A stretch of DNA of 64,000 nt from positions 124,001-188,000 of the forward strand of contig NZ_CP116009.1 of NCBI RefSeq assembly GCF_027941915.1, given 5' to 3'. The notes below the pieces were generated by a model. That model ran no database searches, was not told the origin of the DNA, and saw nothing but the letters and a program-made list of their open reading frames with translations. Positions 55,922-61,453 of this stretch are shown here, one piece after another; position 1 is the stretch's first letter, and every line of letters starts with the position of its first letter. This DNA comes from Ramlibacter tataouinensis (GTDB lineage: Bacteria; Pseudomonadota; Gammaproteobacteria; Burkholderiales; Burkholderiaceae_C). The translations under genes and the position numbers were made by a program.

Positions 55922-58237
55922 TTACTCGGAAGAGATCTCTTCCGGTTCCGGCTTGGCCCTGCCCTCCTTCTTCGGCAGCGGCTGGATGTCGAGCAGGACC
56001 TCGTCCTTGTCGTCCAGGTCCACCGTCAGGCGCCCGCCTTCGGTCAGCCGGCCGAACAGCAGTTCGTCGGCCAGCGCGCGCCGGATCGTGTCCTGGATCA
56101 GGCGCTGCATCGGCCGCGCGCCCATCAGCGGGTCGAAGCCCTTCTTGGCCAGGTGCTTGCGCAGCTTGTCGGTGAAGGTGACATCGACCTTCTTCTCGGA
56201 CAACTGCTGCTCCAGCACCAGCAGGAACTTGTCGACCACGCGCAGGATGACCTGCTCGTCCAGCGCCTTGAAGCTGACGATGGCGTCCAGGCGGTTGCGG
56301 AACTCCGGCGTGAACAGGCGCTTGATGTCGGCCATCTCGTCGCCCGCCTCGCGCGGGTTGGTGAAGCCGATCGCCGCCTTGTTCATGGTCTCGGCCCCCG
56401 CGTTGGTGGTCATGATGATGATCACGTTGCGGAAGTCGGCCTTGCGCCCGTTGTTGTCGGTCAGCGTGCCATGGTCCATCACCTGCAGCAGCACGTTGAA
56501 GATGTCGGGGTGCGCTTTCTCGATCTCGTCGAGCAGCAGCACCGCGTGCGGCTTCTTGGTAATGGCCTCGGTCAGCAGGCCGCCCTGGTCGAAGCCGACA
56601 TAGCCCGGGGGCGCACCGATCAGGCGCGACACCGCGTGCCGCTCCATGTACTCGGACATGTCGAAGCGGATCAGCTCGATGCCCATGATGTAGGCCAGCT
56701 GCTTGGCCGCCTCGGTCTTGCCGACCCCGGTGGGGCCGGAGAACAGGAACGAGCCGATCGGCTTGTCGCCCTTGCCCAGGCCCGAGCGCGCCATCTTGAC
56801 GGCGCCCGCCAGCACCTCGAGGGCCTTGTCCTGGCCGAACACCACGGACTTGAGGTCGCGCTCGAGGTTCTGCAGCTTGCCGCGGTCGTCGTTGGACACG
56901 TTGGCCGGCGGGATGCGGGCGATCTTGGCCACGATCTCCTCGACCTCGGCCTTGGAGATCGTCTTCTTGCGCTTGCCCGCGGGCAGGATGCGCTGGGCCG
57001 CGCCGGCCTCGTCGATCACGTCGATGGCCTTGTCGGGCAGGTGCCGGTCGTTGATGTACTTGGCCGACAGCTCGGCCGCCGCCTGCAGGGCGTTGGCCGC
57101 GTACTTGACGCTGTGGTGCTCCTCGAAGCGCGACTTCAGGCCCTTGAGGATCTCAATGGTCTGCTCGACGGTCGGCTCGACCACGTCGACCTTCTGGAAG
57201 CGCCGCGACAGGGCCGCGTCCTTCTCGAAGATGCCGCGGTACTCGGTGAAGGTGGTCGCGCCGATGCACTTGAGCTGGCCGCTCGAGAGCGCCGGCTTGA
57301 GCAGGTTGGACGCGTCCAGCGTGCCGCCCGAGGCCGCGCCGGCCCCGATCAGGGTGTGGATCTCGTCGATGAACAGGATGGCGTTGGGCTTGTCCTTGAG
57401 CGACTTGAGAACGCCCTTGAGGCGCTGCTCGAAATCGCCGCGGTACTTGGTGCCCGCCAGCAGCGCGCCCATGTCGAGCGAGTAGACGTTGGAATCGGCC
57501 AGGATCTCGGGCACGTCCTTCTGGACGATGCGCCAGGCCAGGCCCTCGGCGATGGCCGTCTTGCCGACGCCGGCCTCGCCCACCAGCAGCGGGTTGTTCT
57601 TGCGCCGGCGGCACAGGATCTGGATGACGCGCTCGACCTCGTACTCGCGGCCGATCAGCGGGTCGATCTTGCCGTCCTTGGCCTGCTGGTTGAGGTTGAC
57701 GGTGAACTGCTCCAGCGGCGAGGCCTTCTCGTTCTTCTCGCCGCCTTCCTCGCCGTCGGCGCCCGACGACTCGCCGCTCTTGGCGGGCTCGGGCGGGTCG
57801 CTCTTCTTGATGCCGTGGGCGATGAAGTTGACCACGTCCAGCCGCGTGACGCCCTGCTGGTGCAGGTAGTACACGGCGTGCGAATCCTTCTCGCCGAAGA
57901 TGGCCACCAGCACGTTGGCGCCGGTGACTTCCTTCTTGCCGTTGCCGGTGGACTGCACGTGCATGATCGCGCGCTGGATCACGCGCTGGAAGCCCAGCGT
58001 CGGCTGGGTATCCACGTCGTCGGTGCCGGCGACCTGCGGCGTGTTGTCCTTGATGAAGTTGGACAGCGACTTGCGCAGGTCGTCGATGTTGGCCGAGCAA
58101 GCCCGGAGCACCTCGGCCGCGCTGGGGTTGTCCAGCAGGGCCAGCAGCAGGTGTTCCACGGTGATGAACTCGTGGCGCTGCTGCCGCGCCTCCACGAACG
58201 CCATGTGGAGGCTGACTTCCAATTCCTGGGCAATCAT
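55922..58237 (-). CDS. clpA: ATP-dependent Clp protease ATP-binding subunit ClpA
   Basis: 771 residues, standard length. The N-domain with two Clp repeats (residues 1-145: [20 protein letters not shown]) is the ClpS-binding site. A charged, Glu/Lys-rich linker follows. NBD1 has Walker [19 protein letters not shown] and [20 protein letters not shown]2 has [20 protein letters not shown] and [15 protein letters not shown]. The IGL-type loop that docks on ClpP is in [14 protein letters not shown]. It unfolds substrates for ClpP. It lies 54 bp downstream of clpS, the conserved adaptor-unfoldase operon. Confidence 0.96.
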
Positions 58238-58291: not shown

Positions 58292-58660
58292 TTACTCGAC
58301 AGGTTCACTCACGCACTGCAGCGGGTGGCCTGCCTGGCGGGCGGCTTCCTGGACCTGCTCCACCTTGGTGGCAGCGACGTCGCGGGAATAGACCCCGCAG
58401 ATGCCTTTTCCGTCGAGGTGGATCTTGAGCATGATCTGGGTTGCCGTCTCGCGGTCCTTGTTGAAGAACTCCTGGATCACCACGACCACGAACTCCATCG
58501 GGGTGTAGTCGTCGTTGAGCATGACGACCTGGTACATCTGGGGCGGCTTCGTCTTCTGGGTCCGCCTCTCGAGCACCACGGAGCCGCCGTCGTCCTCCGT
58601 CGGCTGCGCGCGGGGCGCGACCGGTGCGGGCACGGGTGGTTTGCTGGCCATGAAATTCAT
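58292..58660 (-). CDS. clpS: ClpS adaptor of the ClpAP protease (N-end rule)
   Basis: 122 residues from ATG 58660, or 119 from ATG 58651; neither has a strong ribosome site. A disordered N-terminal Pro/Ala-rich tail leads to the core [20 protein letters not shown], the [10 protein letters not shown] signature that forms the N-degron pocket, then the helix [14 protein letters not shown] and [20 protein letters not shown]. It delivers proteins with Leu, Phe, Tyr or Trp at the N-terminus to ClpA. A divergent cold-shock gene starts 276 bp away, a common betaproteobacterial arrangement. Confidence 0.95.
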
Positions 58661-58936
58661 TCTATCGAGCAGGCTTTCGCGCTGCACCGCCAATCTGAAA
58701 TGGTGACGGGGGCGCCACATTCAAGCAGCGCGGCCGGAGCCAGCTGAGGGCCTTCCGCGCGCTCAGCCGGGTCGGCTGCGCGCCTCTCTAGTTTCCCCGC
58801 CGAGCGGGGCTCGCGGCCGATTGCATCGCCCGAAGGAGCCATCAAAACTTTAGTATGTGGAAATGTTGACAGCCCCGGGCCTGATCCGTGACACTCGCGC
58901 GCAGGAATTCGAGGGATTGGAGAGAGGGGCCCCGTC

Positions 58937-59254
58937 ATGGCGACCGGTACTGTCAAGTGGTTCAACGATGCGAAGGGATTCGGGTTCATAGAGCCCGACG
59001 GCGGCGGCTCGGACGTGTTCGCCCATTTCTCGGCCATTGCGATGGAGGGGTTCAAGACCCTCAAGCAGGGCTCGCGCGTGAGTTTCGAGATCACCGAGGG
59101 CCCGAAAGGCCAGCTCGCGCAGAACATCCAGACCGAGGCCCAGCCCAACGGCGCCGGCCCGGCAGCCGAAGACGAGAGGCCGCCGCGGCAGTCCAAGGTG
59201 CGGGCGCCGCAGTTCCATGCTTCCGGGCAGCGGGCGGATCTTCCGGCCGAGTAG
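58937..59254 (+). CDS. Cold-shock-domain protein with C-terminal tail
   Basis: 105 residues. Residues 1-68 are a full cold-shock domain: [20 protein letters not shown] with the RNP1 KGFGFI motif, DVFAHFSAI as RNP2-like, and [17 protein letters not shown]. The last 37 residues form an extra hydrophilic, Glu/Arg/Pro-rich tail that normal CspA lacks. It binds single-stranded RNA/DNA and melts mRNA structure. The upstream 140 bp could hold a structured leader typical for cold-shock mRNAs. Divergent to clpS; ends at a strong terminator. Confidence 0.93.
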
Positions 59255-59377: not shown

Positions 59378-60631
59378 TCACATCTGGTCGATCATGACCT
59401 GGCCGAAGCCGGAGCAGGACACCTGGGTGGCGCCGTCCATCAGGCGGGCGAAGTCGTAGGTCACCTTCTTGGACAGGATGGCTTTTTCCATCGAGCTGAT
59501 GATCAGGTCGGCGGCCTCGGTCCAGCCCATGTGGCGCAGCATCATCTCGGCCGACAGGATCTCGGAGCCGGGGTTGACGTAGTCCTTGCCGGCGTACTTC
59601 GGCGCGGTGCCGTGGGTGGCCTCGAACATGGCGACCGTATCGCTGAGGTTGGCGCCCGGGGCGATGCCGATGCCGCCCACCTGGGCCGCCAGCGCGTCGG
59701 AGACGTAGTCGCCGTTGAGGTTGAGCGTGGCGATCACGCTGTATTCCGCCGGGCGCAGCAGGATCTGCTGCAGGAAGGCGTCGGCGATGGAATCCTTGAT
59801 GGTGATGTCCTTGCCCGTCTTCGGGTTCTTGAACTTGCACCACGGGCCGCCGTCGACCTCGACCGCGCCGAATTCCTTCTTGGCCAGCGCATAGCCCCAG
59901 TCACGAAAGCCCCCTTCCGTGAACTTCATGATGTTGCCCTTGTGCACCAGCGTGACGCTGGGCTTGTCGTTGTCGATGGCGTACTGGATGGCCTTGCGCA
60001 CCAGGCGCTCGGTGCCCTCGATCGAGACCGGCTTGATGCCGATGCCGGACGTCCCGGGGAAGCGGATCTTGGTGACGCCCATCTCCTCGATCAGGAACTT
60101 GATGACCTTCTGCGCCTTGTCGGACTGGGCCTCGTACTCGATGCCGGCGTAGATGTCCTCGGAGTTCTCGCGGAAGATGACCATGTTGGTCTTCTCCGGC
60201 TCCTTCAGCGGCGAGGGAACGCCCTTGAAGTACTGGATCGGGCGCAGGCAGACGTACAGGTCCAGCTCCTGGCGCAGCGCCACGTTCAGCGAGCGGATGC
60301 CGCCGCCCACGGGCGTGGTCAGCGGGCCCTTGATCGAGACGACGTAGTCGCGCACGGCGTGCAGCGTCTCCTCGGGCAGCCAGACGTCGGGGCCATAGAC
60401 CTTGGTCGATTTCTCGCCGGCATAGACCTCCATCCAGTGGATCTTGCGCTTACCGCCGTAGGCCTTGGCGACCGCGGCGTCGACCACCTTGAGCATGACC
60501 GGCGTGATGTCCATCCCCGTGCCGTCGCCCTCGATGTAGGGAATGATCGGCTGGTCCGGCACGTTCAGCGAAGTGTCGGCGTTGACGGTGATCTTCTGGC
60601 CCTGGCTGGGCACCTTGATGTGCTGGTACAT
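59378..60631 (-). CDS. icd: NADP-dependent isocitrate dehydrogenase
   Basis: 417 residues, the same length class as E. coli Icd. It contains [20 protein letters not shown], the isocitrate-site serine segment [17 protein letters not shown] (equivalent to the AceK-phosphorylated Ser113), [15 protein letters not shown] and [23 protein letters not shown] specificity is seen in [19 protein letters not shown] (Lys-Tyr contacting the 2'-phosphate). It makes 2-oxoglutarate and NADPH in the TCA cycle. Monocistronic, with a 213-bp region to the next divergent gene. Regulation by a kinase is possible because the serine is kept, but aceK is not in the window. Confidence 0.97.
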
Positions 60632-60843: not shown

Positions 60844-61050
60844 ATGACCAAGCTTCTCGGCTCCCTGATCGCCGCCCTGTTCGCCACCGCCGCCTTCGCG
60901 CAAGCCACCCCGGCCGCCGCCCCGGCTGCCCCGGCCAAGGCCGAAGCGAAGAAGGAAGAGAAGAAGGAAGCCAAGGCCGAAGCCAAGGCGGAGAAGAAGG
61001 AAGCCAAGGCCGAAAAGAAGGCCGACAAGAAGGAAGAAGCCAAGAAGTAA
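60844..61050 (+). CDS. Small secreted Lys/Ala/Glu-rich protein (copy A)
   Basis: 68 residues. Signal peptide TKLLGSLIAALFATAAFAQ with cleavage after FAQ, then ATPAAAPAAPAKAEAKKEEK and a chain of KKE/KAE units. The mature part should be highly charged, disordered or a single alpha helix with i,i+4 Lys-Glu salt bridges. A very similar gene lies 187 bp downstream (same start, same ATPA-PAAPAKAEAKKEEK core), so the two are tandem paralogues. Small alanine/lysine-rich secreted proteins like these are common in Comamonadaceae, but no function is assigned. A terminator follows directly. Confidence 0.75.
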   Translation: MTKLLGSLIAALFATAAFAQATPAAAPAAPAKAEAKKEEKKEAKAEAKAEKKEAKAEKKADKKEEAKK

Positions 61051-61237: not shown

Positions 61238-61453
61238 ATGTCCAAGCTGCTCGCCGCCCTGACGGCCGCCCTGTTCTCCGCCGCCGTGTTCGCGCAGGCC
61301 ACCCCGGCCACGCCCGCCACGCCGGCGGCCCCGGCCAAGGCCGAAGCCAAGAAGGAAGAAAAGGCCGCCGCCAAGGAAGACAAGGCTGCCGCCAAGAAGT
61401 CCAGCAAGAAGACCGCGAAGAAGGCGAAGAAGGCCGAAGACAAGAAGGCCTGA
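61238..61453 (+). CDS. Small secreted Lys/Ala-rich protein (copy B)
   Basis: 71 residues with the same plan as the gene at 60844: signal peptide SKLLAALTAALFSAAVFAQ, an ATPATPATPAAPAKAEAKKE start of the mature part, then a strongly basic AAKKSSKKTAKKAKKAEDKK tail that resembles histone H1-like proteins but is exported. It is more basic and less acidic than copy A. It has its own ribosome site (CGAGAGGATCC region) and its own terminator at 61474, so the copies are separate transcription units after duplication. Confidence 0.75.
   Translation: MSKLLAALTAALFSAAVFAQATPATPATPAAPAKAEAKKEEKAAAKEDKAAAKKSSKKTAKKAKKAEDKKA

Follow-up and report, generated by a model that had tools for sequence, protein, structure and literature searches.

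The window, meaning the whole 64,000-nt stretch of Ramlibacter tataouinensis DNA analyzed here, corresponds to contig positions 124001-188000 of a 4.47-Mb genome assembled as a single contig, which holds three cold-shock-domain-like places at E up to 0.001. We focused on a small gene for a cold-shock domain (CSD) protein, csp, and its neighbors, whose features are listed below in window coordinates.

55922..58237, minus strand: clpA, after clpS (TIGR02639 above cut-off)
58292..58651, minus strand: clpS, divergent neighbor (alternative starts 58660 and 58720; PF02617 and NF000672 above cut-off)
58866..58871, plus strand: TTGACA, likely -35 element of csp
58937..59254, plus strand: csp open reading frame, 105 aa plus stop, without internal stop
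58937..59134, plus strand: CSD, residues 1-66 (from PF00313, dN/dS, and AlphaFold2 pLDDT)
59063..59068, plus strand: specificity-loop codons Lys43-Gln44, at the position of K43-A44 in E. coli CspD (PMC11648934)
59135..59176, plus strand: variable acidic linker, 14 aa
59177..59197, plus strand: basic stretch RPPRQSK
59198..59221, plus strand: conserved peptide VRAPQFHA
59222..59251, plus strand: variable C-terminal tip, 10 aa
59273..59295, plus strand: likely terminator, a strong hairpin downstream of the csp stop with the T-rich TTCGTTT behind it
59378..60631, minus strand: icd, convergent, downstream of csp (NF005425 above cut-off)

In an alignment of 58 upstream regions, every base of the likely -35 element is conserved in 95% or more of the sequences; a consensus scan gave no full promoter. 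The scan did not list the terminator hairpin, which was assigned by folding against shuffles (z -2.53 for a 59-nt stretch, with 5 of 200 shuffles folding as well). If clpS starts at 58651, as we assumed, 285 bp separate it from the csp start; two ATGs farther upstream could also serve. The intergenic region contains another conserved block (58697-58727), which may be the minus-strand promoter of clpS. No Rfam family reached threshold between 54000 and 64000.

The csp product matches PF00313 over residues 3-65 (E 5.9e-28; 97 bits versus a gathering score of 27), which together with the open reading frame and clpS bears out the first-pass annotation of a cold-shock domain protein adjoining clpS. 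Its comparison with CspA also holds: at 105 aa, the protein is about half again as long as the E. coli CspA chain (1mjc, 69 aa). The 37-residue charged tail that it described is indeed charged (11 residues: 2 D, 4 E, 1 K, and 4 R) but measures 39 aa counting from residue 67. Eleven NCBIfam models matched the protein, none reaching its own cut-off; the best was the CspE equivalog NF049933 (103.3 bits, cut-off 120), and the CspD equivalog TIGR02381, aligned over residues 1-66, scored 102.1 bits against a cut-off of 115.4. The best PDB match was 3cam, the Neisseria meningitidis Csp (E 1.1e-30), and all 50 rows listed from a Foldseek search were CSD or CSD-containing by title.

Csps of this kind from beta-proteobacteria fall into clade III with CspD, according to excerpts of PMC6719143 and PMC7074383. 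The Ramlibacter protein shares with the clpS-linked Csps of Betaproteobacteria (clade IIIb or K-E type; Paraburkholderia fungorum, N. meningitidis) the place beside clpS, the CSD sequence, Ala2, and loop Lys43; its N terminus reads Met-Ala-Thr-Gly, Ala at position 2 being a K-E type trait. The Paraburkholderia and Neisseria loci, however, encode tail-less Csps of 67-68 aa with a K-E loop, whereas the Ramlibacter protein has a tail and a K-Q loop. It has in common with E. coli CspD the divergence from clpS-clpA, i.e., the CspD-type gene order, and the TIGR02381 alignment; CspD itself is 74 aa by coordinates, with a K-A loop and a short C-terminal extension (excerpts of PMC11648934). Mycobacterium tuberculosis CspB (9xw3), Y-box, and Lin28 proteins share the CSD but carry other C-terminal parts; neither the 9xw3 match, which ends at query residue 78, nor the longest Lin28 match, which ends at 86, reaches the motif. 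The gene is hence best explained as the clpS-linked Csp of Betaproteobacteria, the positional counterpart of E. coli cspD, with an added disordered arm. A search of open-access PubMed Central literature, by title and abstract start, returned no paper on this tail or its motif.

We collected 181 loci by similarity to the window protein, which yielded a non-random sample of 157 distinct complete csp genes with clpS in the same piece. In all 157, csp is divergent from clpS, and icd is convergent downstream of csp wherever it was found (67/67). E. coli K-12 has cspD divergent from clpS-clpA, with the small yljB between, and 42 of the 157 clpS-adjacent genes are tail-less (fewer than five residues past position 66). 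Because the same setting occurs in E. coli and in 42 tail-less orthologs, adjacency to clpS is uninformative about the tail: the csp-Clp neighborhood is old, older than the tail, and independent of it. The motif showed no link with an unusual extension at the N terminus of ClpS: among the 27 chosen loci compared (two of them blank), the GSVVLERR stretch was also present in motif-less relatives such as L090 and L163. One locus (L043) lies on a contig titled Mycobacteriaceae, yet its csp, clpS, clpA, and icd genes resemble those of Betaproteobacteria; mislabelling or contamination of the assembly is probable.

Excerpts of the work of Hasegawa et al. (PMC11648934) trace Csp specificity to a small number of residues in the loop and N terminus of the bare CSD, with loop residues 43-44 affecting target choice. 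In that account, K-A is widespread in gamma- and K-E mainly found in beta-proteobacterial members, A or E occupies position 44 in 98.8% of 427 K-X proteins, acidic loop residues impede action on some RNAs, and Csps of the K-E type are marked by induction of gdx and weak induction of baxL in E. coli. The loop here is K-Q and belongs to neither type: Lys43 is kept and Glu44 is replaced. Across the 157 genes, the loop residue was Gln in 103, all of which have a tail of five or more residues, Glu in 52, only 10 of which are tailed, and Pro in a single tailed gene; the shortened gene L165 could not be scored. Loop and tail both follow lineage, so they are not independent events and need not be causally linked.

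Selection along the protein was estimated by the Nei-Gojobori method, pooled over all pairs of 58 distinct genes with [RV][AT]PQF in the tail, a choice that biases those motif columns. VRAPQFHA gave a dN/dS of 0.024. CSD residues 2-65 gave 0.086, an average within which many single residues are as invariant as the motif, and the seven residues preceding the motif gave 0.40. Two eight-residue linker segments (0.90 and 1.10) and four residues of the tip (0.89) gave values that are inflated by indels to an unknown extent, since these segments are anchored at one end only. dS ranged from 1.04 to 1.13 across segments except for the basic stretch (0.89). Given that dS of the motif is ordinary (1.13 versus 1.06 in the CSD), the motif is held as protein rather than as DNA or RNA, and a DNA- or RNA-level element inside it is unlikely. 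Its fixed residues vary synonymously, with CGC, CGG, CGT, CGA, and AGA all used for the motif Arg. Within the selection pattern, P, Q, and F are present in 58/58 rows; in columns outside the pattern, V is kept in 57, H in 52, and the last A in 56 of the 58, and an Arg five residues before the motif Arg in 57. VRAPQFHA is under strong purifying selection at the protein level, in line with the earlier suggestion that the tail matters. That suggestion missed the division of the tail into a variable linker and a conserved peptide; the lack of conservation that it named as a ground for refutation applies to the linker and tip and not to the motif.

The distance from residue 66 to the motif Arg varies from 18 to 33 residues among the 58 genes, in which mean net charge is -1.9 for the linker, +3.8 for a 15-residue segment spanning basic stretch and motif, and about -0.6 for the CSD. 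An AlphaFold2 model (59 rows) is confident for the CSD (pLDDT blocks of 70-92 for residues 1-60) and gives the tail neither strand nor helix, with blocks of 48-63 from residue 71 on. The tail thus has the makings of a short linear motif, namely a short conserved stretch in an otherwise diverged region, with disorder predicted.

A search of 60 genomes of the genus found any CSD match in 57. Among 55 genus loci, counted without selection for the motif (L164 is the same contig as L004), the exact VRAPQFHA occurs in 49, the shortened gene L165 included, and PQF beyond residue 66 in 52, L162 and L163 being without it. The peptide or a variant is present in 53 of the 55; L158 has a decayed form only. 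Outside the genus, VR[AT]PQF[HN] matched in 6 of 6 loci tested, and the motif was also found in two more genomes of g113. We then have two wider surveys. A profile built from 28 motif-bearing rows was run against 399 family genomes, which represent 141 genera, 106 of them giving a match; the best 14 genomes, at 157 bits or more, comprised six of the genus and eight others from five further genera (G132, G134, G164, G047, G064, G264, G113, and G335), and the tail of the next-best, G055 at 153 bits, is motif-less. In a search of 300 genomes of the order, only the window's own genome scored at that level, the next reaching 142 bits. These searches suggest that, among the genomes covered, the motif is restricted to Ramlibacter and a few related genera; lower-scoring tails may hold decayed forms. 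A CSD match to the profile was absent from 149 of the 399 family genomes versus 13 of the 300 order genomes, 8 of these 13 from g182 of family f42; Csp losses may be common in the family; the loose initial screen may also miss some Csps.

With either Arg codon family allowed, VR[ASPT]PQF is encoded at one place in this genome, the tail itself. As a DNA pattern it has matches in 98 of the 399 family genomes, and a control has matches in many genomes too; 13 listed pattern places coincide with tail coordinates. Thirty loci from the pattern search (L182-L211) included one CSD tail (L210), and the frames of the other 29, read as short text, showed none with the basic stretch and tail setting. VRxPQF frames recur among related genomes in L184-L186, in L187 and L191, and in L196-L198 and L211. 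The pattern can occur in other proteins by chance or for reasons of their own.

We used a quick ClpA tree of 150 rows rather than 157, rows with too little ClpA having been dropped; the motif-bearing L091 (from G064) and L165 are absent. A single 61-row branch (SH-aLRT 91) takes in all 57 motif rows, together with four motif-less tails. The tree is rough and requires five changes, which fits one gain and four losses. It also has several long branches and puts tail-less Burkholderiaceae within the tailed group, a placement that we distrust; we relied on this tree for no more than the clustering of the motif rows. The clpA pieces of three Neisseriaceae loci (L027, L042, and L058) sit on very long branches. 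Judging from the four motif-less rows and the decayed form in L158, the motif can be lost. The shortened gene L165 (G230:C53:690-3824, start near 1501) is an in-frame 54-codon csp beside clpS in which most of the CSD is missing but the start and the conserved peptide of the tail remain; it may be an assembly fault, its genome being 89% complete in about 170 contigs.

An arm that is predicted to be disordered, and that carries a motif held at the protein level and confined to related genera among those searched, would suit a tether. By family resemblance, the CSD would bind RNA or single-stranded DNA as in other Csps; the arm would consist of the flexible acidic linker and a near-terminal short linear motif, [KR]-V-R-[AT]-P-Q-F-[HNQ]-A; and the motif would dock on one fixed partner, bringing the chaperone to a chosen place, for which the ribosome, RNA polymerase, or a nuclease or helicase are candidates. 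We see roughly an even chance that the tail is such a disordered tether docking the chaperone on a partner. We prefer a protein partner to RNA, since conservation of the uncharged V, A, P, Q, and F equals that of the Arg, whereas the basic flank drifts. Several points temper this proposal. First, the motif segment is basic with one Phe, which also suits nucleic acid, and the AlphaFold2 model contains no bound form of the tail. Second, the motif has apparently been lost or has decayed in some relatives. Third, a match to [RV][AT]PQF was the criterion for the 58 rows and biases those columns, the unselected genus count being 53/55 with variants included, and the CSD average of dN/dS conceals residues that are equally invariant. 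More tentatively, and with somewhat less than even confidence, we suggest that VRAPQFHA is a new docking peptide by which the Csp of the Ramlibacter lineage is tied to a single fixed machine of the cell and that, with the acidic loop residue changed to Gln, a general chaperone became a two-handed, re-targeted one. If true, a Csp with a conserved tethered peptide would show how such a chaperone can be directed to a partner. With a motif this short, a synthetic peptide could be used to fish for the partner, which makes the question directly testable.

The strongest competitor, which we nonetheless hold to be unlikely, is that the tail makes a second nucleic-acid contact, the basic stretch and the motif Phe extending the RNA or single-stranded DNA surface and altering specificity together with the K-Q loop. 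The +3.8 charge of the segment, the tail on every loop-Gln protein but few loop-Glu ones, and the reported impeding effect of acidic loop residues on action on some RNAs (PMC11648934, in excerpt) are consistent with it. The fixed V, A, P, Q, and F nevertheless exceed the needs of a basic patch, and the covariation of loop and tail is one of lineage. Less probable again is that RNA binding is regulated by the tail folding back onto the CSD of the same chain or onto a dimer mate. A fixed motif on a flexible linker of the same chain would allow this, and strand exchange between two molecules has been described for the N. meningitidis Csp (excerpts of PMC11648934). Against it, the AlphaFold2 monomer leaves the tail unstructured at low confidence, and the G230 gene keeps the motif without most of the CSD, if that gene is not an assembly fault.

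ClpS recognizes N-degrons with an N-terminal Leu, Phe, Trp, or Tyr, and ssrA-like substrates of ClpAP or ClpXP end in small hydrophobic residues. Neither signal is evident in the 58 motif-bearing genes: residue 2 is Ala in 55, Pro in 2, and Thr in 1, none of them destabilizing, and the C-terminal residues are variable, with an ssrA-like ending ([LIVAM]A with an optional A or V) in 0/58. The first-pass idea of a degradation signal for the adjacent Clp system is therefore unsupported, for want of a visible N-degron and of a conserved C terminus, and the adjacency predates the tail. In its broader form, a signal for ClpAP-ClpS or another AAA+ protease, it draws on the position beside clpS-clpA and on the turnover of E. 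coli CspD by Lon (PMC7566177, in excerpt, citing Langklotz and Narberhaus 2011); an internal degron or a protease-processed N terminus is possible, and overall we judge a degradation signal very improbable. A neutral extension of the frame into GC-rich DNA, which the near-unity dN/dS of linker and tip would fit, is refuted for the motif by a dN/dS of 0.024 with dS as high as elsewhere; it could stand only for the linker and tip and has next to no probability as an account of the tail.

Beyond icd, the window encodes two small exported-looking proteins on the plus strand (60844-61050 and 61238-61453), very rich in Lys, Ala, and Glu after a signal-like start. They are mutually alike and, by appearance, a tandem duplicate.
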